DNA of 64,000 nt from Acidovorax defluvii (GTDB lineage: Bacteria; Pseudomonadota; Gammaproteobacteria; Burkholderiales; Burkholderiaceae_C). Every line of letters begins with the position of its first letter. The first letter of the stretch is position 1. A model generated the notes under the pieces. It ran no database searches and was not told the DNA's origin. It was given only the letters and a program-made list of their open reading frames with translations. The DNA is taken from the NCBI GenBank assembly GCA_003268905.1, contig QLTU01000013.1:1-64000 (forward strand). The letters are read 5' to 3'. Of this stretch, positions 27,375 through 43,710 are shown one piece after another. Made by a program: the position numbers and the translations under genes.

Positions 27375-27505
27375 GCTGCGATCCTCTTGTTGCTGACGTG
27401 CGCAGCTTAGGCGCGGCCTGCGACAAGTTGCGCCGCAAAGAAGCCACTGCGACGAACTGAGCACAAACAGAGCAGCAGAGCGCTCACCGCAGGCGTGGAG
27501 CACCT

Positions 27506-28170: not shown

Positions 28171-28187
28171 GTATTACCCTGTAATAC
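28171..28187. promoter_or_regulatory. vapBC operator palindrome
   Basis: GTATTACCCTGTAATAC has perfect 7-base arms and lies 16 bases upstream of the vapB start, overlapping the last base of cobC. The position suits autorepression by the VapBC complex. Binding is inferred. Confidence 0.6.
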
Positions 28188-29200
28188 TAGCATGCCGATG
28201 TGTGCCTCCATACCGCCGCCCGCAAGGCCTCTTGCGGCTCGGGCGCCAGCACGCCCAGGCGCACCACGCCGGGAAGGCCGAACGAGGCGCAGTCGCGCAG
28301 CTTGATGCCCTGCGCCCGCAGGTGGTGCAGCAGCGCGGGCAGGTCGGCCACCGGGGGCCGCGCGCAGAAGTAGTTGGCCTGGCTGCCGGGCAGCACCTCC
28401 CAGCCCAGCGCGTCGCACAGCGCCAGCTGGCGCGCCTTCCAGTCGCGCAGCACACCCAGGCATTCGGCCAGCCAGTGCTGCACGCGGGGCTGCACCCAGG
28501 CCTGCAACAGCGCCACGCCGTGCGCGCCCACGGGCCAGGACGGCGCCAGCGCAACAAGGGCTGCCGCATCGGCCTCGCAGCCCTGCGGCGCGATGGCGTA
28601 GGCGGCGCGCACGCCCGTCAGGCCCAGGGCCTTGTTGGGGGTCCACAGTTGCCAGACGCGTCCCAGGCGCCCCGGCGGCGGCGCATGGCCTTCGAGGCGC
28701 AAGGGGTGGTAGGCGCAGTCGAGCACGCGCAGGGCGTCCTGCCCACTGCCGTCCAGCAGCCAGGCGGCCAGCGCCGTGTCGCTCCGGCCCAGCGGACTGG
28801 AGGGCTCGCAGGCCCATTGCAGCGCGGCACCGGTACCGGGTGCGTGACAGAAGACCAGGCCCCAGGCGCGGGCGGCCTGGGCATAGTCGCCATAGCCATG
28901 CGCAGGCACCGCCACGGCGCCTGCACCGCGCCGCACGGCCAGCGCCGTGATGCGGTGGATGAACTCGCTGGCGCTGCCCGCCAGCACGATGCGTGCGGGC
29001 GCCACGCCATGAAACACGGCCAGCTGCGCGCGCAAGGCGGTGTAGGCCGGGTCGGGATAGCGCGTGGCGTCGGCCTGCTGCACGGCGGCGAGGGCCATGG
29101 GGCACGGGCCGCAGGCGTTGCTGTTGGTCGAGAAGTCGTTCGGCGCGGCGCCGAGGCCGTCGGTGCCGCCGTGGCAGGGCATGGCTGCGGCATCAGGCAT
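28187..29200 (-). CDS. cobC: L-threonine-O-3-phosphate decarboxylase-like aminotransferase
   Basis: A 337-residue PLP enzyme of the aminotransferase I/II fold, of the CobC/CobD(Salmonella) group that supplies the aminopropanol linker of cobalamin. It has DFSTNSNACGPCP, YPDPAYTALR, VLAGSASEFIHR and the PLP-lysine region WTPNKALGLTGVRAAYA. It is the last gene of the B12 operon and overlaps the chimeric gene upstream by 8 bases. It has a close tandem relative in that chimera, whose N-terminal two-thirds match it almost motif for motif. Confidence 0.87.
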   Translation of the reverse strand: MPDAAAMPCHGGTDGLGAAPNDFSTNSNACGPCPMALAAVQQADATRYPDPAYTALRAQLAVFHGVAPARIVLAGSASEFIHRITALAVRRGAGAVAVPAHGYGDYAQAARAWGLVFCHAPGTGAALQWACEPSSPLGRSDTALAAWLLDGSGQDALRVLDCAYHPLRLEGHAPPPGRLGRVWQLWTPNKALGLTGVRAAYAIAPQGCEADAAALVALAPSWPVGAHGVALLQAWVQPRVQHWLAECLGVLRDWKARQLALCDALGWEVLPGSQANYFCARPPVADLPALLHHLRAQGIKLRDCASFGLPGVVRLGVLAPEPQEALRAAVWRHTSAC

Positions 29201-29978
29201 TCCAGGCCCCTTGAATAGCTACGATAAAAATAGCTGACACCGCAATACCAGAAAGGGTCCAAGCCACTTTTGAAGCAAATTTTTGCGCCCACCCCACATC
29301 CCGTGGCGTGGGCGCCCGCCCCTGCGCATGCAACTGGTACACGCCCGGTTTGGTGAGCCGCACACCCAGCGTCAGCCCCATGGCCTTGTTAGGCGTCCAC
29401 AGCTGCCAGCAGGCCGATGGCAGGTGCGGCGATGGCGATCCAGCCCAGGCACCCTCCTCGTCCAGCCGCAGTGGTGCATAAGCGCAGTCGAGCACGCGCA
29501 GCGCAGCGACGGTGCTGCCGTCCTGCCATGTGCGCACCGCAGGATCTGCCCGACCCAGCGGGCTGGAGGGCTCGCACGCCCATTGCAAACCCGCCGCAGC
29601 ACCACCTCCCCGCACAACATCGAGCCCGCGCACTTGCGCAGCCTGGGCATAGTCGCCATAGCTGTGCGGCGGCACTGCCACCTGCACCGCGCCTTGCTGT
29701 GCGGCCAGGGCGGTCATGCGGTGAATGAACTCGCTGGCACTGGCCGCCAGCACAATGCGCGCCGGGGTCACGCCATGAAAAGCACCCAAACCCTCGCGCA
29801 GCGCCGTGTAGGCCGGGTCGGGGTAGTGCGTGGCATCGGCCGACTGCACGGCGTGCAGTGCCTCGGGGCACGGGCCACAAGCGTTGCTGTTGGTCGAGAA
29901 ATCAAACACCGGAACGCCCGCAGCATCCGGCCCACCGTGCAATGGCACGGGCGTGGAGAAACAACTTGGGGAGGTCAT
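29193..29978 (-). CDS. Chimera: N-terminal part of CobC-like enzyme fused to C-terminal CobD tail
   Basis: A 261-residue protein made of two parts. Residues 1-203 copy the CobC-like decarboxylase encoded next door (DFSTNSNACGPCPEAL, YPDPAYTALR, SASEFIHRMTALA) up to the PLP-lysine motif WTPNKAMGLT. From about residue 204 the sequence GVRLTKPGVYQLHAQGR continues as the C-terminal tail of CobD (NVRLAKPGVYTLHSKGR in the intact cobD upstream), with its hydrophobic helix. The reading frame is open throughout, overlaps cobD by 4 bases and cobC by 8, and lacks the C-terminal aminotransferase domain. It is probably non-functional as a decarboxylase and most likely the scar of a tandem duplication. Confidence 0.82.
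   Translation of the reverse strand: MTSPSCFSTPVPLHGGPDAAGVPVFDFSTNSNACGPCPEALHAVQSADATHYPDPAYTALREGLGAFHGVTPARIVLAASASEFIHRMTALAAQQGAVQVAVPPHSYGDYAQAAQVRGLDVVRGGGAAAGLQWACEPSSPLGRADPAVRTWQDGSTVAALRVLDCAYAPLRLDEEGAWAGSPSPHLPSACWQLWTPNKAMGLTLGVRLTKPGVYQLHAQGRAPTPRDVGWAQKFASKVAWTLSGIAVSAIFIVAIQGAWNA
29213..29246 (+). repeat. Dispersed repeat, partial copy G
   Basis: TAGCTACGATAAAAATAGCT followed by GACACCGC aligns with the first half of the reference copy at 9819. The hairpin half is missing. It lies within the last codons of the chimeric gene and encodes part of its terminal hydrophobic helix. Confidence 0.5.
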
Positions 29979-30979
29979 GCGTGCGCCCAGGCAACCCCCA
30001 CCAGCACCAGCAGTTGCAGGCCCGCCACCACGGGCACCATCGCCAGCACCACCTGCGTGCCCAGGCGCGCGGCACGCCGCGTATCCAGAGGCCCCGCCCT
30101 GCGGCCCTTGCTGTGCAGCGTGTACACACCGGGCTTGGCCAGGCGCACGTTCAACGCCAGCGCCATGGCCGCCATGGGCCAGCCGCTGTTGGGGGATGGC
30201 GTCTTGCGCGCCTGGCGGGCCAGCGTGGAAAACGGCTGGCCCCTGGCGACCACCGCCAGCAACAGGGCGGTGATGCGGGCTGGCACCCACGACAGCACGT
30301 CGTCCGCCCGCGCCGCCCACTTGCCCGCACATTGCCAGTAGCGCCCGCCGCGCATGCCGGGGTAGCCCCACATGGCATCGGCCGTATTGGCAAAGCGGTA
30401 CAGCGCAGCGCCCGGCAGGCCCAGCAGCGCAAACCAAAAGAGCGGCGCCACCACGGAATCATTCAGGTTCTCGGCCAGCGACTCGATGGCCGATTCGCGC
30501 ACCTGTACGGCGGTGAGCGCGCTTACATCACGGCTCACCAGCCGGGCCAGTTGCGCGCGCCCGGCGGGCAGCGACTGACCCAGCGCCACCTCCACCGCCA
30601 GCACCTCGTCGTGCAACATGCGCCAGGCCAGCAGCGGCTTGAGCAGCAGCGCCAGCAAGGCAGCCGCCACAAAGCCGTGCAGCATCAGCACCAGATGTTG
30701 CGCCCCCCAAGCCACTACCAAAACAATAGCTGCCAGCGCAAGCCAGACAAGCGCTGAGCGCCAAAAAGCCTTCAAATCGTCAGCGACGGGGGCCGTGGGC
30801 GCCAGCCGGTCGCCCCACCACTTCAGCGCCCGCCCCATCCAGACCACAGGGTGCCAGGCGGCGGGTGGCTCACCCAACCACCAGTCCACCGCCAGCGCCA
30901 GCAGCGGCACGCCGATCCACACCGCCAATTGGGGCCAGCCCCCTGCGGGTGTGAGCAATAAAAGCCAGTGGTCGGACAC
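29975..30979 (-). CDS. cobD: Adenosylcobinamide-phosphate synthase CobD/CbiB
   Basis: A 334-residue membrane enzyme that joins adenosylcobyric acid to aminopropanol (phosphate). It has LALAVDWWLGEPPAAWHPVVWMG at the N terminus, RESAIESLAENLNDSVVAPLFW in the middle and MALALNVRLAKPGVY near the end, with about four membrane helices. The GTG at 30979, 11 bases after the cobO stop, is the best start; a TTG seven codons earlier is less likely. A copy of the dispersed repeat (30714-30776) lies inside the gene and encodes hydrophobic residues. It overlaps the chimera start by ATGA. Confidence 0.9.
   Translation of the reverse strand: MSDHWLLLLTPAGGWPQLAVWIGVPLLALAVDWWLGEPPAAWHPVVWMGRALKWWGDRLAPTAPVADDLKAFWRSALVWLALAAIVLVVAWGAQHLVLMLHGFVAAALLALLLKPLLAWRMLHDEVLAVEVALGQSLPAGRAQLARLVSRDVSALTAVQVRESAIESLAENLNDSVVAPLFWFALLGLPGAALYRFANTADAMWGYPGMRGGRYWQCAGKWAARADDVLSWVPARITALLLAVVARGQPFSTLARQARKTPSPNSGWPMAAMALALNVRLAKPGVYTLHSKGRRAGPLDTRRAARLGTQVVLAMVPVVAGLQLLVLVGVAWAHA
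30714..30776 (+). repeat. Dispersed repeat, copy B (inside cobD)
   Basis: CAATAGCTGCCAGCGC, a spacer, AAGCGCTGAGCGCCAAAAAG and CCTTCAAAT align with the reference copy at 9819. It is in frame with cobD and specifies part of a hydrophobic helix (FWRSALVWLALAAIV). Confidence 0.65.
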
Positions 30980-30989
30980 GGCAGCCTGA

Positions 30990-31559
30990 CTAGTCCTCAA
31001 TGCCGCGCTGCGCGGGAATGCCCGCCTTGAACGCGTGCTTGACCATCTGCATTTCGGTCACGGTGTCGGCCAGTTCGATGATCTCGGGCGGGCAGCGGCG
31101 GCCGGTGAGGCACACATGCACGTCCTTGGGCCGCTCGCGCAGGGTCTGCAGCACGCCTTCAAGCGGAAGCCAGCCGTAGATCAACGGATAGGTGATTTCA
31201 TCCAGCACCACCATGAAGTATTCACCCGACAGGATGGCGGCACGCGCCTTCTCCCAGCCGTCACGCGCCAGCTGCGCGGAATGCTCCAGGTCCTGGCTCT
31301 TCCAGCTGAAGCCGTCGCCCAGCCCCTCGATGGGCAGGCCAATCTGCTCGAACATGCGGTGCTCTCCAAAGCGCGCCGTGGGCACCTTCATGAACTGGAA
31401 GATCTTCACGGCCTTGCCACGGCCGTGGGCACGCAGCGCCAGGCCGAAAGCTGCGGTGCTCTTGCCCTTGCCGTCGCCGGTGTTGACGATGACGAGGCCC
31501 CGGCGTTCGCCCTCGGGTTTTTCATAGCGCTTCTCGGTGGGAGGTGTTTCAATTTGCAT
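30990..31559 (-). CDS. cobO: Cob(I)yrinic acid a,c-diamide adenosyltransferase
   Basis: A 189-residue ATP:corrinoid adenosyltransferase of the CobO/BtuR/CobA type. The P-loop is [20 protein letters not shown]. Further motifs are [28 protein letters not shown] and [11 protein letters not shown]. It attaches the 5'-deoxyadenosyl group to cobalt. The ATG at 31559 is 9 bases from GAAAGA. Alternatives are an ATG at 31568 and a GTG at 31592 that would overlap the cobN stop as GTGA, in keeping with the close packing of this operon. Confidence 0.93.
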
Positions 31560-31588
31560 GGCGTTCATTCTTTCAGAGTGGTAGGGCG

Positions 31589-34500
31589 TCACATCGCGGC
31601 CAATTGCGACGGCGGGGACAGGGAAGATGGGCGACGGGCCTGCCAGGTAGCGCCAGCGAGCACCACAAGGGACATGGCCAGCAGCGCCACGATGCCCGCC
31701 ATGCGCTCCAACAATGTGGTTTCGGTCACCGCGGCTTCACGCTCGGGCTGGCGCTCCAGCAGCACGCCCATCGCGGGCACCGCGGACGCGGCGGGTGGAG
31801 TGTTGGCCTGGGGCGGTGGTGCAGGCAGATCGGCGGATGGGGGCACAGGCTGCGCCAACGCAGCTGCGGGCGACTGCGGCGCCGCCACGGCCATACCGGT
31901 CGGTACAGAAGCGGTGCCCTGCGCGGCCTGCTCCACCCAGCGGCGCACGCTGGGCAGCTCGGCCGCCAGCGACGCGGCGCGCGTCAGCTCCTGGTACATC
32001 TGCGCGAGCTGTTGTTGCGTGTCGATATCGGCCTGCCAATAGCCCTGGCGCTGCGCCTGCACCAGGCGCTCCAGCGACTGGGCGTAGGCCTGTGGATGCT
32101 CCTTGAGCCATTCGGGCAGGCCCAGCTGGTGCTTGTCGCGCACCAGCACGTCAAAGAAACTCTGCCAGTGGTCACTGCGCACCGTGTCGGGTGCCACGGC
32201 CTGCCAGCCCCAGGCGTACTGCACGGCTTTGAGCACTTGCAGCGTGCCCGAGTACCCCTCGGCCTTCTGCGCCTGCAGCCAGCCGGGGTGCAGGTAGCGC
32301 GACTGCATCTCCAGCGCTATGGCGCGCTGTGCCGTCTCGGTGGTGGGCTCGGCCACGTCGTGCAGTTGCGCCACATGCAGCTCCAGCCCCTGCGGCCGGC
32401 CGGCCACGCGGGCGGCGGCCGAGAGGCCGCCCAGGTACTGGAATGGGTCGTCCGAGCTGACCATGGCGTACAGGTGCGAGCTGCGCGAGAGGATGGCTGC
32501 ATCGGTCCGGCGCAGGTGGGCACCCAGGGCCTGCGCAGCCCTCGCACCCGCCACGCCTGTCACGGGTTCGCCGTCCAGATACGGCTGGCTCATGCGTTCG
32601 AGAAACATCTGGCCCAGACGCGCATCGTTGGCCTGCAGGCCGTCGCTTTGCACCGCGTCGGACAGGCCGGTGCCGTAGTCGCCCACCGCATTGCCGAACG
32701 AGCGCACGCGCGCCAGTAGCTCGGCCTGCGCGCGGGGCACGCCTTGCTTGCGCAGCTCCTGGTCGATCTGCTCGGTGTTGCGTGCGATCACGTTGCCGGG
32801 CTCGGCCGTGGCGGCCTGGGCCACGGCGCGGTCCAGCAGCGCCATGAGCGCGGGGAACTGGTCGCGGTACGAGCCGGTGATGCTCATGAGCACATCGACG
32901 CGCGGGCGTTTGAGTTCTTCTGCGGGAATGGTTTCCACGCGCACCGGGCGGCCGGCATCGTCCCACACCGGACGCATGCCCAGGGCCACCAGCGCCTGTG
33001 CTTCCATGATGCCCTGGTGGCGCAGCGTCTCGCCCGCCCACAGTGACAGCGCCATGCGCTGCGGCGCCTGGCCGCCGTGGCGCGCCTGGTAGTCCTTGAA
33101 CCAGTCGTTGAACAGCGTCTGGGCCACGGCATAGGCCTGGCGCGTGGGCAGTCGGCTCGGGTCCAGCCCCGTGAGGTTGCGGCCCGTGGGCAGACTGTCG
33201 GGGTTGCGGATGGGGTCGCCACCGTAGGCAGCGGGCAGGTAGCGGCCCTCCAGCGCGGCCAGCAGGCCGGGCAGCTCGCCCTCGGTGGCGAGCAGGCGCT
33301 CCAGCTCTTGCGCGCGCCGGGCCAGCTGCAGCAACGCGGGGGTGTCGATGGGCTGGCGCGCTGCGCGGTTGGGCACGTAGTCTTCGGCGCGCACCACGTC
33401 GGATGCCGCCTGCGCCGGCAGCGCGGGGCGCAGGTCGAGCACACTCGCGGCCTCGGCGTCCTTCAATGCCACCTCCAGCCAGCGCGCGGGGCGCGCGGCC
33501 AGCACCGCGTCGTGCTGGATGAGAAAGGCTTCGTCGATGTCCTCGCCCAGCGCCTCAATCAGCGGCTTGCGCAGCGCCTGCAGGATGGTTTCGCGCCGCT
33601 GCTCGGGCGCGGGCACGCGGCCGAACACAGCCAGGCCCTTGGGTTGCGAGCTTTGCGCGAGCTGGTCCAGGTAGGGGTGCAGGATTTCGAGGAAGCCGTG
33701 GAAATCGGCCGCGATGCGCTCGGCGCTCCAGCCCAGGTCGCGGTGCAGCTGGTGCTCCACGAACTGCGCCACCAGCTGCTTTTCGAGCGCGCGACGCGTG
33801 GGGCCTTCGTCCACGGTTTCCCATTCGTGCATCACCTCGTGCATGTGGGCCATGCGCGCCGCAAAGCCCGCCGGCGCAAACACCGGCGTGCGGTGGCTCA
33901 CCAGCATGGCGCGGCCCCGGCGCTTGGCCGTGAGGGCCTCGCCCAGGTTGTCCACGATGTAGGGGTAGACCACGGGCAGGTCACCGAGCGGCAGCAGCGC
34001 GTCGTCGTGCACATCCAGCGCACGCGCCTTGCCACCCGCCCATTCCTGCGTGCCGTGCGTGCCGAAGTGGATGAGCGCATCAGCCTCCAGCTGCGCCCAC
34101 AGGTACACGGCCAGGTAGTGGTGCGACAGCGGCGCCTTGGATTTGTGCATGAAGGGGTTCTGGCCCTGGCGCAGGGTTTCCTCGCGCGGCGGCTGGGGCA
34201 GCACGGCCAGCTGGCCCACCTGCAGGCGCGGGATCGCAAACACTTTTTCGCCCTGCCAATCGACCACGTAGCGGCTCTTTGCGGGTGCGCCCCAGTGCGC
34301 GTTCATGCGCTCGCGCACGGCCTTTGGCAAGGTGGCCAGGTGCTGCTCATAACGCGCCAGTGGCAGCGCGGCGGCCTGGCCGTTTTGCAGCAGCGCGTGC
34401 ACATCGGCGCCGGGGTAATAGGCAGCGAGCAGCGGCTTGAGCCCATCAATCCAGCCCTGCTCGGGCACGCGCTGCGTGCGGTAACCCGCCTGGGCCAGGC

Positions 34501-35776
34501 CGCCGGACACCTGCTCCAGACTGCGCGGCACGTTGAGAAACGAGGCGCCAAAGTTGGTGCCGCCCGGCGGGTAGTTGTAGACCATGGCCACCAGGCGCTT
34601 GTCGGCGGCAGGCTTGGTCTGCAGCGCGATCAGGCGCCGCGCCTTGGCGGCCACGGCCTGTGCCTGGCGCTCAATGAGTCGAAATTCTTGCCCCTGGGCA
34701 CCGTGGGCGGCCACCAGGACCGGGTCGATGGCACCGGCCGCCTCGGGCTGCGCCAGGTAAAACGGCACGTCGGACAGCGACAGGCCCGTGTCGCTGGCCT
34801 CCCACGCCGCCGCATCGCCCGCACGGTAAGGCTGTGTGCCCAGCAGGGGCACGCCCCAGCGCGCCAGCAGCGGCTGCAGTGCGGCGGCCTGGGGCACGAG
34901 CTGGTGTAGCACCAGGGCGGAGGCATGCAGGCGGCCGGGGCCAGAGCCAGCGCTTGCGGGCAGCTCCAGCACCTCGGCCAGCGTCTGCGCCGTGACCTGC
35001 TGGCCAAAGGCGGCATAGGCGAACAGGCCCTGCTGGCGGAAGGTGCGCAGCCAGGCGTCGAGCCATCCGGTGCTGCCATCGACAAAATGGTGGCGGTGCA
35101 CCAGCACGGCCACGGCGGGCAGGCCCTGCAGTTCGGGCTGGCCCCGGCGCCATGCCTCCAGCGCTGAGGCATGGGGCAACAGGCGGGGGGCATCGGGGTG
35201 GTAGATGCCACGGGCGGGCAGGATCGCGGGCGCGGGCAAGGCGGGCATGGCGACACCCGCTACGGTGGCACGCGCCAGGGCGATGGCGCTCTGCAGGTTG
35301 CGCGGGCCACCGGCCTGCAGGTAAGCCGCCATGCGGGCTGGCGCGTCCAGCGCAGCCATGTCGATTGCGGGCACTCCGGCAGGCACCCAGACCAGGCGGC
35401 CGGGGAAACGTGTCGCACGGGCATCGAGCTGCGCCCCTGCCATGCGGCGCAGGCGTGCCTCCACGCTGGCATGCGGCGCGTCTACCCACACCAGCGCAGC
35501 GCCCGCCAGCGCGCGCTGCAGCTTCCGGGCATCCGCCGCATCCAGCACCGCCGGGCCCGCGAGCGGGTAGTCGATGTGCGCAAAGCCCAGGCCCGCCTCG
35601 GTGGCCAGGCGCTGCACCATCGCCGTGCGCGTGGCGGTGGTGATATCGGAGGTGAGCCACAGCAACACGGGCGCAGCCTTATCGGCGCGATCGGCTGTGC
35701 CAGCCGGGACGGCATGCACCTGCGGCGCAGCCAGCAGCAGGCACCACAATGCCGCGCACAAGATGAGCGCGTTCAT
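31589..35776 (-). CDS. cobN: CobN-like chelatase subunit with signal peptide and C-terminal membrane anchor
   Basis: A 1395-residue protein of the CobN/magnesium-chelatase H family. It has a signal peptide ([20 protein letters not shown]), the large chelatase body with [14 protein letters not shown] and [19 protein letters not shown], a Pro/Ala-rich linker, and one hydrophobic helix near the end (about residues 1358-1377, [19 protein letters not shown]). Ordinary CobN is cytosolic and works with CobS/CobT, which are not seen here. This version should face the periplasm. It overlaps the DUF2149 gene by 4 bases and forms a unit with it and the ExbB-like gene. Corrin-ring genes are absent, so a role in metal or corrinoid handling is more likely than de novo insertion. 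Confidence 0.85.
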
Positions 35777-36138
35777 GGCTGGGCGGATGGTCCACCGGCC
35801 GCTTCAGGGGCTGACACAGCGCGCGTTTCAGGGATGTAGACGATGTTGCCGTCTTCGAGCTGGTAGGCCACGCCCGCACGCACGCCCTGCCCTTGCGCTG
35901 CGCTGCCAGCGCCCTTGAAGCGCACTTCCTTGCCCTGCTCGCGCACCACCACTTCCATGTCGGGCTGACCCGCGTTGCGGATGATGGTGACGCTTTCGTT
36001 GGCGCTGGTCTGGCTCTGCACGGCCACGGCCGTGAGCAGCGCCACCACCAGCACCAGGAACACGTCCACCAGGTTCACGGCGGACAGCATCGGGTCGTCG
36101 TCGTCCTCGGCCAGGACACTCAGGTGATTCAACATCAT
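35773..36138 (-). CDS. DUF2149 protein, ExbD-like single-span membrane protein
   Basis: A 121-residue protein. A short acidic cytoplasmic start (EDDDDPML) leads into one helix, VNLVDVFLVLVVALLTAV, with an Asp near its beginning, as in ExbD/TolR where that Asp carries protons. The rest is a small periplasmic domain (VTIIRNAGQPDMEVVVREQGKE). DUF2149 genes commonly sit next to ExbB-like and CobN genes. The gene overlaps both neighbours by ATGA. A proton-channel partner role is inferred from position and the buried Asp. Confidence 0.8.
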   Translation of the reverse strand: MMLNHLSVLAEDDDDPMLSAVNLVDVFLVLVVALLTAVAVQSQTSANESVTIIRNAGQPDMEVVVREQGKEVRFKGAGSAAQGQGVRAGVAYQLEDGNIVYIPETRAVSAPEAAGGPSAQP

Positions 36139-36602
36139 TGCGCCACCCCGCGCTCCTTGCGCACCACCAGCAGCTCCGCCAGCAGCCAGCGACGGCGCAC
36201 CGAGTACACCACCAGCCCCACCGACGCGGCAGCCAGCGCCAGCACCACGCCGGCAAAGGCGCCGCTGAACACGGCCAGGGCCTGCTGCCCGTTGCCCGCC
36301 GCCACGCTTTGCAGCGCGGGGCCCAGCGGGATCATCGTGGCGATCAGCCCCAGCATGGGCGAGAGGCGGCTGAGCAGGCGCACGGGCTCCACCTGGCGCA
36401 CCAGTTGCAGCTCCAACTCTTCCATCGACAGATGGGGCGCCGCACCCAGCGAGCGGTACTGTGGCTGGCGCCAGCGTTGCCAGGCCTCCATGAGCGTAGC
36501 GCCGCCCACCCACAGCGCGTAGACAAACGCCAGTCCCACCAGCACCAGCACGGGCCACAGCAACGACTGCGCAACCTGCGAAAAACCCGATTCGATGTTC
36601 AT
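36135..36602 (-). CDS. MotA/TolQ/ExbB proton channel family protein
   Basis: A 155-residue inner-membrane protein with three hydrophobic helices at about residues 13-34, 78-100 and 108-132. The motif LSRLSPMLGLIATMIPLGPAL matches the TolQ/ExbB signature around the proton path (Pro-x-x-Gly-Leu-x-x-T-M). It is shorter than ExbB. Together with DUF2149 it should form a proton-driven motor, here dedicated to the CobN-like protein. It overlaps btuD by ATGA. Confidence 0.85.
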   Translation of the reverse strand: MNIESGFSQVAQSLLWPVLVLVGLAFVYALWVGGATLMEAWQRWRQPQYRSLGAAPHLSMEELELQLVRQVEPVRLLSRLSPMLGLIATMIPLGPALQSVAAGNGQQALAVFSGAFAGVVLALAAASVGLVVYSVRRRWLLAELLVVRKERGVAQ

Positions 36603-37408
36603 GCGTCAATTTCCCTGGTCTTGTTGTGACGGTGTATCGATGGCAGCGCCATCCACATGCCATCGAGATGCCGCACATGGATGCGGTGGTCAAACACCTG
36701 CTCCAGCGCAGCGTGGGTGTCGGGCGCGTCGCAGGCGCCCTGGTGCAGCACGCGGCCTGCCGCCATCACCACCATGTTGTCGGCCTGCAGCGCGAGCGAC
36801 ACCTCGTGCAGCACGCTGACCACCGTGCCGCCCGCATCGACCAGCGCGCGCATGGTGTGCAGCCAATCGGTCTGATGGGGCGGGTCGAGGTTGGCCAGGG
36901 GCTCGTCCATCAGCAGCACCTGCGCCTGCACGGCCAGGGCGCGGGCCAGCAGCACGCGCTGGCGCTCACCGCCCGACAGCTGCGACAGCGGCCGGTGGCG
37001 CCAGTCCCAGGCCTGCGTGGTGCGCAGCGCCTGCTCCACAGCGGCATGGTCGGCCGCGCTGGGCGAGGCCAGCCAGGCCTGGTGCGGCAGGCGGCCCAGC
37101 ATGGCCACGTCGTAGCTGGAGAGGTCGTCGGCCGAGCCTTCGTTCTGCCCCAGCCAGGCGAATTGCCGGGCACGTTCGCGTGCGGGGATCTGCGCCAGTG
37201 GCCGCCCGAGCAACTGCACCTCGCCCTGCACCGAAGCGCCGGGTAACAGGCCCGCCAGCACCTTCAGCAGCGTGGACTTGCCGGCGCCATTGGGCCCGAC
37301 GATGCTGGTCCAGCGCCCTGCTGGCAGTTGCAGGTCAACGCCCTGCAATATCAAATGATTTCCGATGCTGGCGCTTATCTGGCAAGCGCTGATAGCTACT
37401 GAATTCAT
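36599..37408 (-). CDS. btuD: Vitamin B12 ABC transporter ATP-binding protein
   Basis: A 269-residue ABC ATPase of the FecE/BtuD group. Walker A is IVGPNGAGKSTLLKVL, the Q-loop region FAWLGQNE, the signature QLSGGERQRVLLARAL, Walker B VLLMDEPLANLD and the switch His in VVSVLHEVSLAL. It powers the BtuC permease. Its first codons fall inside copy F of the dispersed repeat, and it overlaps btuC by 4 bases. Confidence 0.9.
   Translation of the reverse strand: MNSVAISACQISASIGNHLILQGVDLQLPAGRWTSIVGPNGAGKSTLLKVLAGLLPGASVQGEVQLLGRPLAQIPARERARQFAWLGQNEGSADDLSSYDVAMLGRLPHQAWLASPSAADHAAVEQALRTTQAWDWRHRPLSQLSGGERQRVLLARALAVQAQVLLMDEPLANLDPPHQTDWLHTMRALVDAGGTVVSVLHEVSLALQADNMVVMAAGRVLHQGACDAPDTHAALEQVFDHRIHVRHLDGMWMALPSIHRHNKTREIDA
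37347..37408 (-). repeat. Dispersed repeat, copy F (5' end of btuD)
   Basis: On the minus strand this reads TAGCTATCAGCGCTTGCCAG, then ATAAGCGCCAGC, matching the hairpin part of the reference copy at 9819. It contains the btuD start codon region and supplies about its first 20 residues. Confidence 0.55.
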
Positions 37409-38430
37409 AGTGCACCACCTTGCGATGTGCGCCGGTGCATGAGCCACAGCAGGTAGGTACCGCCCAGGGCCGCCGTGAGCACGCCCACCGGCAGCTCCTG
37501 CGGCGCCAGCAGCCAGCGCGCCAGGATGTCGGCCGCGAGCAGCAACACCGCGCCCATCAGGCTGGAGAGCACGATGTGCCGCTCGTGCGTCACGCGCACG
37601 ATGGACCGCACCAGGTGCGGCGCCGCCAGCCCCACAAAAGCAATCAACCCGGTCTGCGCCACGGCCGTGCCCGTGGCCAGCGCCATGGCCGCCACCAGCC
37701 CGGCGCGCATGGGCGCGAGCGGCAGGCCCAGACTCGCGGCCGTGGCCTCGCCCAACGTCAGGCCGTCGAGCGCGCGGGCCAGCATCCATGCCACCACCGA
37801 GCACACAACAAAGGCCCCCACCATCAGCACGCAGGCCATCCAGCCGACAAAAGCCGTGCTGCCCAGCGTGAAGGCCTGCATGGCCTGCAGGATGTCGGGC
37901 GAGGCCAGCTCCACCAGGTCGCGCAGGGCGCTCAGCACCACACCCACGATCACGCCCGCCAGCAGCAGGCGCAGCGTGTGTTGCACGCCTTTAGCCAGCA
38001 GCAGCGTAAGAACCACGGCGCCCGCCGCGCCCAGAAACGCCATGCCCGTGATGCCGATGCGTGCCAGCCACTGCGCCGCCACCGGCGACACACCAAACAG
38101 CGCCATGGCCACGGCCCCGCCCAGCGCTGCGCCCGAGGCGCTGCCCAGCAGGTACGGGTCGGCCAGCGGGTTGCGAAACAACCCCTGCGCCACCGCGCCC
38201 GACAGGCCCAGCAGCGCGCCCGCCAGCCAGGCGCCCAGTGTGCGCGGCAAGCGGATGTCCCACACGATCTGCCAGGCCACCGGGTCGCCGTGCATGCGCA
38301 GCACGCTGTCGAAACCCGTGCTGCCCACGCTGGCGCCACACACGGCCAGCACAGCGCTGGCCAGCAACAGCCAGGCACCACACCAGGCGGCTCGGCGGCT
38401 TTGGTGGTGATGATCTATGGCCGTGGTCAT
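37405..38430 (-). CDS. btuC: Vitamin B12 ABC transporter permease (FecCD family)
   Basis: A 341-residue inner-membrane protein with about ten helices. FecCD motifs include IRLPRTLGAWLAGALLGLSGA, FRNPLADPYLLGSASGAALG and GLAAPHLVRSIVRVTHERHI, the last forming the coupling region for BtuD. It carries corrinoid across the cytoplasmic membrane. The start abuts the btuF stop codon with no gap. Confidence 0.92.
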   Translation of the reverse strand: MTTAIDHHHQSRRAAWCGAWLLLASAVLAVCGASVGSTGFDSVLRMHGDPVAWQIVWDIRLPRTLGAWLAGALLGLSGAVAQGLFRNPLADPYLLGSASGAALGGAVAMALFGVSPVAAQWLARIGITGMAFLGAAGAVVLTLLLAKGVQHTLRLLLAGVIVGVVLSALRDLVELASPDILQAMQAFTLGSTAFVGWMACVLMVGAFVVCSVVAWMLARALDGLTLGEATAASLGLPLAPMRAGLVAAMALATGTAVAQTGLIAFVGLAAPHLVRSIVRVTHERHIVLSSLMGAVLLLAADILARWLLAPQELPVGVLTAALGGTYLLWLMHRRTSQGGAL

Positions 38431-39465
38431 TCAGTTCACCGCGACGCTGGCACTGCTGTCAGCCGACGCAACTGGCGCGGCCCAACTCAGTGCACCCGTG
38501 GAACTGGCTTTGCCAGGCCACTGGGTGCGTCCCCCCGAGGGGGAAGGCGCCGCAGGCGACTCAGGGGGAGCTTTCTCCGCCAGGCAGCGCGCCATGATGC
38601 GGGCGGCCTCGGCCATGCGCGGGCCGGGGCGTACCACCACGTCGGAATCGCCGGGGCCAAACACGCACAGCCGGTTCTCACGGATGGCGCGCATGCTGGC
38701 CCAGCCCGGGTACGGCACCATGGCCTGCATGCTGCGGTTGCCGATCATGATGATGTCGGGGTTGGCGCGCACCACAAACTCGGGGTTCAGACGGGGAAAA
38801 GGCCCGAGCGATGCGGGCACCACATTGCGCACCCCCAGCCGTGCCAGGGACTCGCCGATGAACGACGATTCGCCCGCCGCATAGGGCCCGCGGCTCACCT
38901 CGAAGTACACGCGCGCATTTTTGGCCTTGGGTGGCAGCGACTGCGCCGCCGCCTGCACACCCGCATCGATCACGCGCCAGAGGCGGTCGGAGCCCTGCGC
39001 GCGGGGCACGCCCAGTAAATCGCTCACAACGCCCAGCACGCGGCGCACGTCGGCATGCGTCTTGGGCTCCAGCGCCACGACGGTGAGACCCAACGCCTCC
39101 AGCCGGTCGCTGGCGCGTGAGCTGACGGACAACAGCACCACATCGGGCTTGAGGGCCACGATGGCCTCAATGCTCGGGTCCAGCCCGCCGCCTACTTTAG
39201 GCAGCTTGCCCACCACCGCGTCGGGCCAGTTGGAATAGCGGTCCACCCCAACGAGACGGTGGCACTGCTCCAATTCACACACGCTTTCAGTCAGCGAGGG
39301 CAACAGGCTCACGATGCGCTGGGGCGAACGCGGCAGCGCCACCGCGCGGCCCCGGTCATCCGTGATTTGCACCGGCTGCGCCTGCGCCAGCCCGGCCATG
39401 AGCAAGCCCAGAGCAATAAGGATCGCAATCACCCACAGGATGCGGCGCACGGGGGTCGGTTTCAT
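38431..39465 (-). CDS. btuF: Cobalamin/corrinoid periplasmic binding protein
   Basis: A 344-residue binding protein of the BtuF/FepB class-III type. The signal peptide (WVIAILIALGLLMAGLAQAQ) is followed by VQITDDRGRAVALPRSPQRIVSLLPSLTE. Binding-lobe motifs are VDRYSNWP, LKPDVVLLS and NPDIIMIGN. The last roughly 45 residues (PPESPAAPSPSGGRTQW onward) are low-complexity and derive from a GC-rich repeat at 38515-38575, so the native end was probably near residue 300. It overlaps cobU by ATGA. Confidence 0.9.
   Translation of the reverse strand: MKPTPVRRILWVIAILIALGLLMAGLAQAQPVQITDDRGRAVALPRSPQRIVSLLPSLTESVCELEQCHRLVGVDRYSNWPDAVVGKLPKVGGGLDPSIEAIVALKPDVVLLSVSSRASDRLEALGLTVVALEPKTHADVRRVLGVVSDLLGVPRAQGSDRLWRVIDAGVQAAAQSLPPKAKNARVYFEVSRGPYAAGESSFIGESLARLGVRNVVPASLGPFPRLNPEFVVRANPDIIMIGNRSMQAMVPYPGWASMRAIRENRLCVFGPGDSDVVVRPGPRMAEAARIMARCLAEKAPPESPAAPSPSGGRTQWPGKASSTGALSWAAPVASADSSASVAVN
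38515..38575. repeat. GC-rich palindromic repeat forming the btuF tail
   Basis: The block CACTGGGTGCGTCCCCCCGA, then GGGGGAAGGCGCCGCAGGCG and ACTCAGGGGG, has a C-run/G-run palindrome at its centre. I recall similar blocks between genes of Acidovorax and Comamonas. Here it is read through as the end of btuF. Confidence 0.5.
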
Positions 39466-40067
39466 GAACAGGTTTCTTTCAAAGTCAACGGCAGCCCCGC
39501 TGCCATGAGGGTGACGCGGGGGCACACCTGGGCCACCTGCTGGTTCAGGGTGCCCAGGGCATCGACAAAGGCGCGCACCTCTCGCCCAAGCGGGATGACC
39601 CCCAGGCCGATTTCGTTGCCCACCAGAACCACGGGGCCTGGGGATTGCCGAACTGCTTCCAAAAACATAGCAGCTTGCGCTTTCCAGTCAAGCGCAAGAG
39701 CCTGTTTTTGCTCGAAATTCATGCCTTCGGCACCCACAGGCATCGTCCAGTGGGTGAGCCACAGCGTAAGGCAGTCCACCACCACCAGGGTGTGCGCCGT
39801 GCTCAGGCGCGCCACGGCAGCAGCCACATCGCGCGGCTCTTCCACGGTTTGCAGGCCGGGCACACGCAGGGCACGGTCGCGCTGGTGGCGGGCGATGCGC
39901 TCGCGCATTTCGTCGTCCCATGCTTCCCCCGTGGCGATGAGCACGGCGCGGTGCTCGCCCGATTGCGCCAGCCAGTCGCGCGCCAGCAGCTCGGCGCGGC
40001 GCGACTTGCCGCTTTTCTGGCCACCCAGGATGAGTTCGGTGGTGATGGCTGCGTGCGGCATGGTCAT
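39462..40067 (-). CDS. cobU: Adenosylcobinamide kinase/adenosylcobinamide-phosphate guanylyltransferase
   Basis: A 201-residue bifunctional enzyme that phosphorylates adenosylcobinamide and transfers GMP to it. The P-loop is LILGGQKSGKSRRAELLA. Other motifs are RIARHQRDRA, VVDCLTLWLTHW and VLVGNEIGLGVIPLGREVR. A copy of the dispersed repeat (39657-39718) is in frame within the gene, encoding part of QKQALALDWKAQAAMFLEA. The start overlaps cobB by ATGA; an ATG two codons later is also possible. Confidence 0.93.
   Translation of the reverse strand: MTMPHAAITTELILGGQKSGKSRRAELLARDWLAQSGEHRAVLIATGEAWDDEMRERIARHQRDRALRVPGLQTVEEPRDVAAAVARLSTAHTLVVVDCLTLWLTHWTMPVGAEGMNFEQKQALALDWKAQAAMFLEAVRQSPGPVVLVGNEIGLGVIPLGREVRAFVDALGTLNQQVAQVCPRVTLMAAGLPLTLKETCS
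39657..39718 (+). repeat. Dispersed repeat, copy C (inside cobU)
   Basis: AACATAGCAGCTTGCGCTTT, a spacer, and TCAAGCGCAAGAGCCTGTTT then TTGCTCGAAAT align with the family at 9819 and 62941. It is in frame with cobU and encodes a helix between conserved motifs. Confidence 0.6.
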
Positions 40068-41443
40068 AGGGGCACTCCGCCCATCAGGTGGGCCACAGCC
40101 TCGGGGCTGGAAGGAAACCACGCGTGAAAGTAGCTGGCGTGGATGCTGCCCTGCTGGTACAGCGCCTCGCCAGCATCCGGCACGGGCACTTCACCCGGCC
40201 GGGCCGTGCGGGCCACCACGGTGGCGCTGCTGTCGCAGGTCGAATAATGAAACGTGTGGCCACGCAGGGTATGCCCCGCCACGGCCAGTTGCTGCGGCCC
40301 CAGCGCTGCCAGGCGCTTTTGCATGGTCACCTGGCCGGGCAGCAGCCCCCACAGTGGGGCGGTGCTGCCATCGGCCAGAGCAATGGATTCCATCAGCGCC
40401 ATCATGCCGCCGCACTCGGCCCAGAGCGGCTTGCCTGCGCCCACATGTGCACGCAGGCTGGCCTGCATGCCGGTGTTGGCGGCAATCTGCGCGGTGTGCA
40501 GTTCGGGGTAGCCACCGGGCAGCCACACGGCGTCGCACTGGGGCAGCGCCGCGTCGTGCAGGGGCGAAAAAAACACCACGCGCGCGCCCATCTGCGTGAG
40601 GCACTGCACATTGGCGGCGTAGATGAAGCAGAACGCGGCATCGCGCCCCACCGCCACCGTGCGGCCGGCCAGCAGGGGTGGCACGGGCGCGGCCTGTACT
40701 GGTGCCGGAAAGTCCACCGACCAGCGCCGCAGATCATCCAACGTCATCTGACCCAGGGGCGTGGCAGCCAGTGCGTCGGCGGCGGCGTCCAGCCGCTCCA
40801 GGCTGTCGGCCAGTTCGTGCGCGGCCACCAGGCCCAAGTGGCGTTCGGGCAGCAGCGCCGCACCGGCCTTGCCCACACCAGGGGCGGCGCCAGGCTGCAC
40901 ACGCATCAGCGCCCCCATCCAGTCGTCGGCATCGTTCAGGCCACCCTGCAGCATGTCGGCATGGCGTGCGCTGCCCACACGGTTGGCCAGCACCCCGGCC
41001 CACGGCAAACCCTGGCGGTAGTGGCGCAGGCCAAATGCCAGCGCACCAAACGTGCCGGCCATGGCCGAGGCATCCACCACCGCCAGCACCCGCACACCGA
41101 AGTGCTGGGCCAGATCGGCGGCGCTGGGGTCGCCATCGAACAGGCCCATGACGCCTTCGATGAGGATGAGGTCGGCTTCCTGCGCCGCCGCATGCAGGCG
41201 CTGGGCGCAATCGGTCTGGCCGGTCATCCACAGGTCCAGCTGGTGCACCGGCGCACCGCTGGCGAGTTGGTGCCAGTGCGGGTCCAGGAAATCGGGCCCG
41301 CATTTGAAGACCCGCACGCGGCGACCCTGGCGCGCATGCAGGCGTGCCAGGGCCGCCGTCACCGTGGTCTTGCCCTGGCCAGAGGCCGGGGCCGCAATCA
41401 GCAGCGCGGGGCTGCGTGCAGCGGCGGTGGTCGGCAGGGTCAC
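40064..41443 (-). CDS. cobB: Cobyrinate a,c-diamide synthase
   Basis: A 459-residue glutamine-dependent amidotransferase that amidates the a and c carboxylates of cobyrinate. The N-terminal ATP-binding domain has LIAAPASGQGKTTVTAALAR, FKCGPDFLDPHWH and LIEGVMGLFDG. The C-terminal glutaminase domain has VWLPGGYPELH and the Cys in PLWAECGGMMALM. The GTG at 41443 overlaps the btuB stop as GTGA and is preferred; a GTG four codons earlier is possible. Confidence 0.94.
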   Translation of the reverse strand: MTLPTTAAARSPALLIAAPASGQGKTTVTAALARLHARQGRRVRVFKCGPDFLDPHWHQLASGAPVHQLDLWMTGQTDCAQRLHAAAQEADLILIEGVMGLFDGDPSAADLAQHFGVRVLAVVDASAMAGTFGALAFGLRHYRQGLPWAGVLANRVGSARHADMLQGGLNDADDWMGALMRVQPGAAPGVGKAGAALLPERHLGLVAAHELADSLERLDAAADALAATPLGQMTLDDLRRWSVDFPAPVQAAPVPPLLAGRTVAVGRDAAFCFIYAANVQCLTQMGARVVFFSPLHDAALPQCDAVWLPGGYPELHTAQIAANTGMQASLRAHVGAGKPLWAECGGMMALMESIALADGSTAPLWGLLPGQVTMQKRLAALGPQQLAVAGHTLRGHTFHYSTCDSSATVVARTARPGEVPVPDAGEALYQQGSIHASYFHAWFPSSPEAVAHLMGGVPL

Positions 41444-43209
41444 TGCGGCGCCCACTTCACGCCGACATACAGCGTGCGGCCCGGCGTGGCATAGCCGTTG
41501 GCCAGGGTGTAATTCTTGTCGGCCAGGTTGTCCAGGCGCGCCAAGATCTGGTAGTCACGCGCCAGGCGGGTGCTGGCGTAGAGATTGAGCAAGGTGTAGC
41601 CGCCCAGGCGGGTCTTGTTGGTCACGTAGTCATAGCGCTGGCCCGAGACCTGCGCCTCGCCGCCCAGCGTCCAGCCCGCCACGCGCGTATCAGCCCCGAA
41701 ACTGGCGTGCTGGCGCGCGCGACGCGCCAGCAGCTTGCCGCTGTCGAGGTTCTTGGGGTTCTGCAAATCCAGCGAACCACGCAGCTGCACCTGGGCGACA
41801 CGGGTACTGCCCGCCAGCGTAAGGCCCTCGTAGCGCGCCTTGCCCACGTTGGCATAGCAGCCCGGGAAGGGGCCCGTGCCACCCGGGCAGGGGCCCGCGC
41901 CGTTAACCCAGTCTATGAGGTTGCTGACGTTGTTACGGTACGCCGTGGCCGAGAAGCTGCTTGCGTCCCGGGCCCATTTCACGCCCAGCTCGACGTTGCG
42001 GCTGGTTTCGGGCTGCAGCGTGGCATCGCCATACATGCTGAAACGCTGGTACAGCGTGGGGGCTCGAAAGGCCGTGCCGGCCGAGGCCGTGGCACGCCAG
42101 TTCGGCGCAAAGGCGTAGCCATAGGTCGCGCTGCCGGTGCTCTTGCCACCAAACTCGCTGTCGGAGTCGTGGCGCACATTGAGCTGCAGCGTGTGGCGCC
42201 CCGCGTTGAAGCCATAGCCCAGTGCCAGGGCATCCTGCGAGCGGCTGCTGTCGATGGGACTGTTTTGCAAATCGTCTTCGCGGCGCTCCAGGGCGGCACT
42301 GAAGCGGTGGGCACCCCAGCGGAAATCGTTCTGCCAGAGGTAGCCGCGCAGCTGGGTCTCGGTGAGGTAAAGCGATGGCGTGGTCTCGTAGCGGTTGACC
42401 GAATCGGTAATCGACACGCGCGTGCTGTACACGTCCGACCATTGCGCCGCCCAGCTGAGGCCTGCCGTACGCAGGCGGTTCAGGCTGCGGTCATCCACGG
42501 GCCTGGACACGCTGTAAGAGGTATTGTCGTAGCCCGCATTCATTCGGCTGGCCAGCAGCGTCGCGTCCAGACGGTGCCGGGCATTGATGCGAAATCCCAG
42601 CCGGGCGTTACCCGAGGTGCTTTGGTAGCCGTCGCGGTCAGGGTTGTGTGAGCCGCTGACCTTGGCATCAAACCCGTCGCTGATTTCGCGCGCAATGCCC
42701 AGCGAATAATCGAACGCGCCATCCTGCCCGGCCGCGCCGCTGACCCCGGCCTCGATTTTGCGGGTGCCCTGGCTGCCAATGCCCACGCCCACATAGGGCC
42801 TTGCAGGGCCTTCGCCCCGACGGGTGAATAGCTGGATCACGCCACCAATGGCGTCCGATCCATAGACCGCAGCGGCCGGACCGCGCAACACCTCGATGCG
42901 ATCGATCTGCGACAGCGGAATCTGCTCCCACTGCGCACCACCGGTGGACTGCGAGTCAATGCGGACACCGTCGATATAGACCGCCGTGAAGCGCGATTCG
43001 GCGCCGCGCAGAAAAACTCTGCTGGCATTGCCCACGCCGCCGTTGCGCGAAATCTCGATGCCCGGAAGGCGTGCCAGCACATCGGCCAGGCCCGTGGCAC
43101 CGCTGCTCTCGATGGTCTCGCGGTCCACGATGGACACGTCGGCCACCAGATCGGCCAGGGGCTGCTCGGTGCGCGTGGCGGTCACCACGGTGTCTTGCAG
43201 TGACGGCAT
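41440..43209 (-). CDS. btuB: TonB-dependent vitamin B12 receptor, separated from its signal peptide by a stop codon
   Basis: A 589-residue outer-membrane receptor. The TonB box region is DTVVTATRTEQPL, the plug domain has VLARLPGIEISRNGG, RVFLRGAESRFTAVYIDG and IEVLRGPAAAVYGSDAIGGVI, and the beta barrel ends in LYVGVKWAPQ. Read from its first ATG it has no signal peptide. The signal peptide is encoded upstream in the same frame (ATG at 43356) but a TAA at 43219-43221 lies between. The gene is therefore either inactive, or the base is an error or a CAA-to-TAA mutation. It heads the long B12 operon behind a riboswitch. Confidence 0.88.
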   Translation of the reverse strand: MPSLQDTVVTATRTEQPLADLVADVSIVDRETIESSGATGLADVLARLPGIEISRNGGVGNASRVFLRGAESRFTAVYIDGVRIDSQSTGGAQWEQIPLSQIDRIEVLRGPAAAVYGSDAIGGVIQLFTRRGEGPARPYVGVGIGSQGTRKIEAGVSGAAGQDGAFDYSLGIAREISDGFDAKVSGSHNPDRDGYQSTSGNARLGFRINARHRLDATLLASRMNAGYDNTSYSVSRPVDDRSLNRLRTAGLSWAAQWSDVYSTRVSITDSVNRYETTPSLYLTETQLRGYLWQNDFRWGAHRFSAALERREDDLQNSPIDSSRSQDALALGYGFNAGRHTLQLNVRHDSDSEFGGKSTGSATYGYAFAPNWRATASAGTAFRAPTLYQRFSMYGDATLQPETSRNVELGVKWARDASSFSATAYRNNVSNLIDWVNGAGPCPGGTGPFPGCYANVGKARYEGLTLAGSTRVAQVQLRGSLDLQNPKNLDSGKLLARRARQHASFGADTRVAGWTLGGEAQVSGQRYDYVTNKTRLGGYTLLNLYASTRLARDYQILARLDNLADKNYTLANGYATPGRTLYVGVKWAPQ

Positions 43210-43356: not shown

Positions 43357-43450
43357 AGGAATCATCATCAACAAACAACCCGAGCCGGCTTCCCCGCCAG
43401 CATGTGGGTGACAAGGCTTCGTTTGCCCTGAAAGGCGCGCGAAACCACCG

Positions 43451-43626
43451 TGTTGGCCGGTATCCGGGCTGGCGGAGCACCCTCCAATGCCTTCCCAGGC
43501 GCTTGTTCAAGGCACCCAGTGGCGTGTGAATGGAGAGGGAATCGGATGATTCGTCCGCTGACCGTTGCGGGGGCAGCGCAGGCTGGGCCCACCATGTTTG
43601 GCGGAACCTCCCTGCTTCCCGTTGAA
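43451..43626 (-). promoter_or_regulatory. Cobalamin riboswitch upstream of the btuB operon
   Basis: On the minus strand the element reads GGGAAGCAGGGAGG, then GCTGCCCCCGCAACGGTCAG, the B12 box CGCCACTGGG, CTGGGAAGGC and GCCAGCCCGGATACCGGCC. All conserved parts of the adenosylcobalamin aptamer are present in order. It should control the 13-gene operon from btuB to cobC. Confidence 0.94.
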
Positions 43627-43710
43627 CTGCGGTATGTGAACCACACCGCGAGCACCAACGGCGCGATTTTAAGGGCATTCCAGGTGCACCCCTCTACAAT
43701 CGCCGGCAGT

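Follow-up and report, generated by a model that had tools for sequence, protein, structure and literature searches.

A cobalamin riboswitch in Acidovorax defluvii heads an operon that places an exported-looking CobN-family chelatase beside an ExbB/ExbD-like pair. The operon lies in a 64,000-nucleotide stretch of DNA (GCA_003268905.1, contig QLTU01000013.1, positions 1–64,000 of the forward strand; hereafter the window), and its exbB-like, DUF2149 and cobN genes are hereafter called the trio. This conserved, B12-controlled association of an exported-type CobN with an ExbB/ExbD-like pair is real; the exported third CobN type, BtuS, is itself already in print. We propose, with a probability of roughly two in three, that the trio forms a motor-linked periplasmic machine acting on corrinoids or cobalt. 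Labels such as L099 and G159 are ours for individual loci, genomes and rows.

An exported-looking CobN within a B12 operon

On the minus strand, downstream of the riboswitch, the operon reads btuB, cbiA, cobU, btuF, btuC, btuD, exbB-like, DUF2149, cobN, cobO, cbiB and a cobC-like gene (Table 1). Every junction from btuD to cobO (btuD/exbB-like, exbB-like/DUF2149, DUF2149/cobN, cobN/cobO) is a 4-base overlap, the arrangement expected of coupled translation. A first-pass annotation of this DNA had placed the trio between btuD and cobO in a B12 operon, with 4-base overlaps of DUF2149 with both cobN and the ExbB-like gene. Coordinates, gene order and the riboswitch (79 bits) agree with that description, and hydropathy shows hydrophobic segments where it had assigned CobN a signal peptide and a C-terminal membrane helix.

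The CobN protein has a Mg-chelatase/CobN body and is predicted from Kyte-Doolittle hydropathy to be exported and membrane-anchored, as in the BtuS type. One hydrophobic segment, accompanied by a V-H-A motif, occupies residues 5–23; the other, at residues 1359–1377, follows a proline-rich linker. This linker between chelatase body and helix spans 96 residues in the window and a median of 85 in the B12 clade defined below; proline makes up a median of 19% of it in that clade and 17% in the other rows of exported type, compared with 6.6% of the body. The C-terminal helix test was passed by 88 of 93 rows, the remainder being four that stop near a contig end (L071, L089, L111, L142) and one under the cut-off (L126); two further rows with tails too short were left out. 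Both terminal segments are missing from the two non-exported relatives compared, G149a (CobN-like) and G028b (BchH-like), whose classes were read by eye. TonB and TolA combine a proline-rich arm with a membrane helix, and by analogy the linker-helix layout of CobN may correspond to TonB or TolA in reverse.

We also considered, and dropped, a conserved motif located between linker and helix: it occurs in only 57 of 88 rows and in 16 of 43 in the B12 clade. At locus L059 (7143–15211), an exported-looking CobN with a C-terminal helix lies directly beside a non-exported CobN, and no ExbB-like or DUF2149 gene was found within the locus.

An ExbB/ExbD-like pair

The ExbB-like protein has no Pfam match at E 0.001; PF01618 scores 17.1 bits (E 0.0103), under its cut-off of 22.9. 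More sensitive comparisons point one way. Searched as a profile against PDB sequences, five of its six matches at E ≤ 1 are MotA, ExbB or TolQ (E 0.012 to 0.27). ExbB/TolQ chains fill ranks 1–33 in the fold search with its structure model (predicted local distance difference test score, pLDDT, 89), led by 5sv0 at rank 1 (probability 1.00, template modelling score 0.57, E 0.025), with none at E ≤ 0.001. Aligned by hhalign to four ExbB/TolQ-type proteins of its own genome it reaches 90%, compared with 0.2% for the control. Thr-89, which we take to occupy the place of the ExbB pore threonine, is kept in 15 of 15 aligned homologues.

The first-pass annotation had also noted an ExbD-like aspartate at the start of the single DUF2149 helix. 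This residue, Asp-25, is conserved in all 15 aligned homologues and presumably stands at the ExbD aspartate position. When DUF2149 is aligned by hhalign to the three ExbD/TolR sequences of its own genome, the helix alone aligns, Asp on Asp (30% over 18 columns, E 0.0005; ExbB control 0.3%). The DUF2149 model is of low confidence (pLDDT 69, predicted template modelling score 0.30), and its periplasmic part has no meaningful fold matches. From these alignments and models, an ExbB/ExbD-like pair appears well supported on the ExbB side and reasonable on the DUF2149 side.

The analogy with ExbB-ExbD and TolQ-TolR would comprise an ExbB-like fold with its conserved threonine, an ExbD-like Asp helix and a third partner on a proline-rich arm. 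The trio differs from those systems in its shorter ExbB-like protein, in a DUF2149 periplasmic part lacking an ExbD match and in having a chelatase as the third partner. One genome that is 99% complete (G057, locus L050) has ExbB-like and DUF2149 genes, and no CobN-family gene was found in it.

Conservation of the trio

Among 200 genomes of the window's order (Burkholderiales), DUF2149 occurs in 15. Fourteen of these also have a CobN-family gene, and the trio is adjacent in all 14, which is beyond chance. A scan of genome contigs yielded 79 loci, drawn from the best 80 of 585 relatives and therefore leaning to close kin. A B12 group was set by identity before any tree was built (51% or more in the contig scan, plus the window and G159). 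In a FastTree tree of 94 rows, from which L079, L104 and L142 were dropped as short and in which L107 duplicates the G159 sequence and L127 that of G038, this B12 clade is a single clade of 43 rows with local support of 100. The window CobN groups there with Acidovorax, with identities reaching 95% across the tree columns. Of the 41 B12-clade loci in the contig scan whose DNA extends far enough, 40 have the full trio; L079 and L097 end before the trio site. The remaining loci usually lie beside other TonB-dependent receptors.

A second B12-linked lineage (L051, L055, L056) is separate and distant, its CobN having 26–27% identity to that of the window. Its genes, in the order btuB, cobO, cbiA, cobN, exbB-like and DUF2149, stand under strong cobalamin riboswitches; its DUF2149 has diverged, and HxGRHS replaces the HFGTHG active-site motif. 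In Azonexus hydrophilus (L096, 7361–21735), a trio of the B12 type adjoins one of the TonB-receptor type on the opposite strand.

Riboswitch control and stand-alone cassettes

B12 riboswitches permit expression when B12 is scarce. We scanned 21 of the 43 B12-group loci plus L046, and found a cobalamin riboswitch in 21 of these 22 as well as in the window. The second lineage has one in three of three loci, and the TonB-receptor-type loci scanned in none of 13. At L087 a second riboswitch serves the trio. Gene order, riboswitches, the 43-row clade and the motor comparisons together agree with the first-pass view of an exported-looking CobN dedicated, with its ExbB/ExbD-like pair, to B12.

Nine loci without adjoining btuFCD (from Parazoarcus, Azonexus, Thauera, Azoarcus and Caldimonas) carry the trio behind its own riboswitch, always in the order riboswitch, ZrgA-family gene, ExbB-like, DUF2149, cobN. 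The ZrgA assignment comes from Pfam in the three loci tested and from similarity in the rest. These nine loci yielded no strong-scoring btuB relative, and the window and the other loci nothing resembling ZrgA. The accessible text of the sources describes ZrgA as binding zinc in the periplasm (PMC9820375) and PA4063, its homologue in P. aeruginosa, as a binder of zinc or cobalt (PMC11481552).

A marginal guanidine-III riboswitch match lies inside the B12 operon of L084 (4574–4640; 39.1 bits against a cut-off of 36) and may have arisen by chance.

Relatives of the trio

The solved structure nearest to the window CobN, both by single sequence and by profile, is that of HmuS (9d26), a membrane-bound, tetrapyrrole-acting heme de-chelatase of Bacteroidota (PMC12583661; statements on HmuS follow the accessible parts of its literature). 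Both proteins have a CobN-type body with the HFGTHG histidine and membrane segments at both ends, and both are encoded with a TonB receptor, an ExbB-type protein and a DUF2149 protein, in the case of HmuS within the heme operon hmuYRSTUV. The active-site His-574 corresponds to HmuS His-538, which is essential in that H538A loses activity, and it is kept in all 97 aligned rows. The window differs in having a B12 riboswitch and B12 genes and in lacking the HmuS residues. Asp and Gln stand in place of His-1209 and Glu-1212 of the HmuS motif LSLDHxxEFMGG, and the heme ligands Met-79 and His-254 align to Pro-101 and, by hand, to about Leu-293. No methionine-rich stretch like the insertion in HmuS domain IV was seen by eye in the window CobN. 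By its residues at the HmuS-family positions, the window CobN is not an HmuS; by analogy, it may work like one, on corrinoids.

The Asp/Gln pair also occurs in solved CobN, as read in the single structure 7c6o from M. tuberculosis. It is present in 44 of 45 B12-clade rows (L106 has Glu/Gln); outside the clade it occurs in 41 of 52, and five have His/Glu (G104, G162, L129, L137, L144). Two histidines next to the HmuS ligand positions follow the clade more closely. His-102 in the head domain is found in 43 of the 43 B12-clade rows with a residue there and in none of 39 others; His-291 in the neck domain is found in 44 of 44 and in one of 52 others. HmuS holds its heme by Met-79 and His-254 between head and neck, and we accordingly predict by analogy that His-102 and His-291 would hold a corrinoid.

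An HmuS-like His/Glu pair is seen in the exported CobNs L129, L137, L144, L053 and L062 (Bosea, Lautropia, an Alcaligenaceae member and two others), and a gene that by eye is Fur-family-like lies near the CobN of L129.

Like parts recur elsewhere. PA1922–PA1925 of P. aeruginosa comprise a TonB receptor, a CobN-like protein, a proton-channel protein annotated ExbD and a DUF2149 protein; they differ in being zinc-regulated, within the Zur regulon, and the accessible literature calls their precise role undetermined. Judged by gene order, the annotated "ExbD" is probably the ExbB-like protein. Stutzerimonas L110 has the same order and falls outside the B12 clade. BtuS, a third CobN type for metalloporphyrin salvage, was proposed by Rodionov 2003 according to the accessible text of Rocha 2018. 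Like the window CobN it is an exported CobN-like protein with a membrane anchor, and its name points to B12, but the BtuS1/2 of Rocha 2018 serve heme iron in B. fragilis. The arrangement is accordingly not unprecedented, since hmuYRSTUV and the Zur-regulated PA1922–PA1925 have like parts and the exported type BtuS was named earlier. We noticed no account of a B12-riboswitch CobN-ExbB-DUF2149 unit among the matches listed in a literature search with little coverage of subscription journals.

The accessible text of the EMBO J paper on HmuS treats HmuU and HmuV as receptor energisers, and the trio, too, often adjoins a TonB-dependent receptor. The ExbB-like and DUF2149 proteins might thus power the outer-membrane receptor BtuB, with CobN a bystander. 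We regard this as improbable. The constant neighbour of the pair is CobN (in 14 of 15 genomes), not a receptor, and the nine stand-alone loci have their own riboswitch and no strong-scoring btuB relative. The genome also encodes four other MotA/TolQ/ExbB-family proteins, all over the PF01618 cut-off, and the unit showed no evident TonB gene, though no search was aimed at one. The P. gingivalis HmuS paper, in its accessible part, proposes a periplasmic location and does not exclude effects of HmuT, HmuU and HmuV on HmuS; the accessible HmuS literature describes no experiment on whether a motor acts on the chelatase.

With HmuS as its nearest solved relative, like partner genes in hmu operons and in PA1922–PA1925, and ZrgA beside the stand-alone cassettes, the window CobN could also be a de-chelatase of the HmuS kind, stripping cobalt from corrinoids, or a wrong metal (zinc, nickel or copper) from corrins or porphyrins, in the periplasm and passing the metal to ZrgA-like proteins. 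We think this quite unlikely: the riboswitch implies expression at B12 scarcity, when removing cobalt from B12 would be senseless, and Met-79, His-254, His-1209 and Glu-1212 of HmuS are not present.

B12 capacity of the carriers

The first-pass annotation had stated that corrin-ring genes and CobS/CobT are absent. Ring genes are indeed missing from the window, and CobT (PF06213) was not found in the genome, where CobS had no separate search. The claim about the ring fails outside the window, as contig C4 of the same genome carries CbiX, CbiF, CbiC, CbiD, CbiE-T, CbiL, the CbiG C-terminal domain, CbiH, BluB and CobA, and thus includes an early cobalt chelatase, CbiX.

The other carriers mostly look different. 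We searched 35 B12-clade genomes (leaving out L072, L076–L079, L089, L099 and L104), of which several are metagenome-assembled genomes with completeness not given, so that absences there are weaker. The ring marker CbiC is found in four and missing from 31; CobT is found in one and missing from 34. The first-pass annotation had held that its proposal would fall if most genomes with this version of CobN also had CobS/CobT and full corrin synthesis; these counts do not refute it. With the window's own genome included, CobQ is present in 35 of 36 genomes. At E ≤ 0.001 CbiA is present in all 36, over its model cut-off in six and as a two-piece match in four. Most carriers thus have no ring synthesis by the CbiC marker, yet are able to finish a corrinoid. 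A cytosolic late chelatase would be needed neither in these ring-less carriers nor in the CbiX-bearing genome of the window.

As background, CbiC occurs in 15 of the 200 order genomes, and by hand count 39 of the 200 have CobB-like scores and 24 of the 39 lack CbiC. We considered whether CbiA in genomes lacking the ring proves that metal-free corrinoids are salvaged, and rejected the argument: CbiA-like proteins are also found in genomes that have neither CbiC nor a B12-linked trio. CbiA is therefore a sign of a salvaging life style rather than of the trio. A metal-free corrinoid was once isolated from a Chromatium strain, according to the accessible text of PMC7693184.

NCBIfam names the window protein "cobaltochelatase CobN", and its genome is able to make the ring; it could on these grounds be an ordinary cobaltochelatase of B12 synthesis mistaken for an exported one. 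Such a reading is very improbable given the signal-like N-terminus and C-terminal helix that G149a and G028b lack, the failure to find CobT in a genome whose ring cluster already has CbiX, and the 31 of 35 carriers without CbiC. The solved CobNST proteins (7c6o, 9uk9) share the body family, the active-site histidine and, in 7c6o, the Asp/Gln pair; they are cytosolic and driven with ATP by CobS/CobT, whereas the window CobN looks exported, has an ExbB-like partner and comes without a detected CobT.

Proposed function

Our best full explanation, held tentatively at somewhat under even odds, is an inner-membrane corrinoid-salvage trio in which a proton motor drives cobalt loading or exchange before import. 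The trio would be switched on when B12 is scarce. CobN would be exported and anchored by its C-terminal helix, its chelatase body reaching into the periplasm on the proline-rich arm, while the ExbB-like and DUF2149 proteins would form a small proton-driven motor of the ExbB/ExbD type, with CobN in the place of TonB or TolA. His-102 and His-291 would bind a corrinoid delivered by BtuB in the space between head and neck. Motor strokes would move head, neck and body apart and together again, bringing the macrocycle to the conserved body site of His-574, Asp-1110 and Gln-1113 and so doing the work that CobS/CobT perform by ATP hydrolysis for cytosolic CobN. The likeliest chemistry would be cobalt loading or exchange in scavenged corrinoids before import by BtuFCD, after which CbiA, CobO, CobQ, CbiB and CobU would finish the corrinoids in the cytosol. 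Complex formation, proton coupling, ligands, substrate and direction are all parts of the model that we infer.

Within a motor-linked periplasmic machine, we would give cobalt insertion or exchange about half of the weight, hand-over without chemistry about a third and removal the rest. We favour insertion or exchange for these reasons: the riboswitch points to use at B12 scarcity, the stand-alone form is accompanied by a metal-binding protein, residues of the cobaltochelatase type are retained, and most carriers have the look of salvagers. A stronger version of the idea is unlikely as a whole: a class I chelatase driven by the proton motive force, in which an ExbB/ExbD-type motor replaces the CobS/CobT AAA+ engine, inserting or swapping cobalt in scavenged, damaged or metal-free corrinoids in the periplasm, with a ZrgA-type cobalt carrier feeding the stand-alone form, for "descobalto-corrinoid" salvage in bacteria unable to make the ring.

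Alternatively, CobN could be a non-enzymatic shuttle from BtuB to BtuF, its binding site reset by the proton-driven motor with no metal moved. The 4-base overlap joining btuD to the trio in the window, the invariant head and neck loop histidines of the B12 clade and the lack of CbiC in most genomes searched would fit such a hand-over, as would L099, which retains cobN behind btuD without the motor genes. We consider it rather unlikely nonetheless, because E. coli BtuB-BtuFCD functions without such a CobN, because the active-site histidine is universal among the aligned rows, and because the stand-alone cassettes, without nearby btuFCD and with metal-binding ZrgA, point to metal.

Several observations weigh against a motor-linked machine that loads or exchanges cobalt. 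The characterised relative, HmuS, acts by taking metal out; according to its accessible literature, the purified protein lacking its membrane segments could turn over heme with NADH, so that no motor was needed in vitro. The window's own genome can make the ring, and the strain need not depend on salvage. Of the 24 order genomes with CobB-like scores and no CbiC, 20 are without a B12-linked trio and 19 without any complete trio. His-102 and His-291 are missing from the second lineage (L051, L055, L056), which limits the corrinoid-ligand claim, and the Asp/Gln pair, so common outside the B12 clade, was rejected as a marker of corrin substrates. On the motor side, the match of DUF2149 to ExbD is short, and neither a PDB sequence profile nor fold comparison gave a usable match by which to recognise it as ExbD. 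One B12-clade locus, L081, gave no riboswitch match even at E ≤ 1. Finally, in the Giesbergeria metagenome-assembled genome L099 (8190–13125), the same riboswitch operon has an exported-looking cobN directly behind btuD, and tblastn found ExbB-like and DUF2149 genes neither between the two nor elsewhere in the locus. Either the two genes were lost or the assembly has a gap there; cobN can, it appears, lack them as neighbours, and this weakens our proposal slightly.

Table 1. Positions in the window of the operon's features and of the CobN residues discussed.
Feature	Position	Strand	Basis or remark
Cobalamin riboswitch, operon head	43438..43674	-	Rfam RF00174, 79.1 bits, E 7.9e-18
btuB-type TonB-dependent receptor	41440..43209	-	PF00593 and PF07715
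cbiA/cobB, cobyrinate a,c-diamide synthase-like	40064..41455	-	PF07685, PF01656; TIGR00379 246 bits, under cut-off 261.4
cobU	39462..40121	-	PF02283, 155 bits
btuF-like periplasmic binding protein	38431..39525	-	PF01497
btuC-like permease	37405..38430	-	PF01032, 252 bits
btuD-like ATPase	36599..37408	-	PF00005; start inferred from 4-base overlap with btuC
ExbB/TolQ-like putative motor protein, 155 residues	36135..36602	-	Profile, fold and hhalign comparisons
DUF2149, ExbD-like, with a small periplasmic domain	35773..36138	-	PF09919, 81 bits; alignment; hhalign against ExbD/TolR
Exported-looking CobN-family chelatase (BtuS type), 1395 residues	31589..35776	-	PF02514, 862 bits; NF004644, 1477 bits, over cut-off
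CobN signal-peptide-like segment, residues 1–22	35711..35776	-	Hydropathy; end inferred from V-H-A motif
CobN His-102, head domain	35471..35473	-	Adjoins HmuS Met-79 position
CobN His-291, neck domain	34904..34906	-	Two residues from HmuS His-254 position
CobN HFGTHG active-site motif, residues 570–575	34052..34069	-	His-574 corresponds to HmuS His-538
CobN 12-residue motif, residues 1106–1117	32426..32461	-	Asp-1110 and Gln-1113 at HmuS His-1209 and Glu-1212 positions
CobN predicted C-terminal membrane helix, residues 1359–1377, after proline-rich linker	31646..31702	-	Kyte-Doolittle hydropathy
cobO, corrinoid adenosyltransferase	30990..31592	-	PF02572; NF004637, over cut-off
cbiB	29975..31000	-	TIGR00380, 211 bits, over cut-off
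cobC/cobD-like aminotransferase	28187..29200	-	PF00155

Other features of the window

Positions 29193–30437 hold what by eye is a partial second cobC-like frame continuing into sequence resembling the end of cbiB. Pfam gave no match on 29193–29873, and the segment looks like the remnant of a tandem duplication. Further B12 genes lie at 15327–19026, where nicotinate-nucleotide phosphoribosyltransferase-like and BluB-like genes (read by eye) stand behind a second, stronger cobalamin riboswitch (17312–17502, 105 bits), together with cobQ (TIGR00313). Between cobQ and cobC, positions 20200–27900 carry non-B12 genes, by eye a WYL-like regulator, a PP2C-like and a PIN-like gene, as if an island had been inserted into the B12 region. 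At the riboswitch end, the operon is adjoined by 6S RNA (44359–44538), which is near the riboswitch in L075, L080, L106 and L056 as well.

Implications

HmuS established that an exported CobN can act on heme in Bacteroidota; here a like unit stands under a B12 riboswitch. The B12 trio is its own regulated cassette in several genera, and most of the bacteria that carry the trio are without the ring marker. The name cobN is thus no proof that a gene serves B12 synthesis. If the motor does drive the chelatase, proton flow would have taken over the role of ATP hydrolysis in such an enzyme, and transfer of metal into or out of tetrapyrroles may take place outside the cytoplasm.

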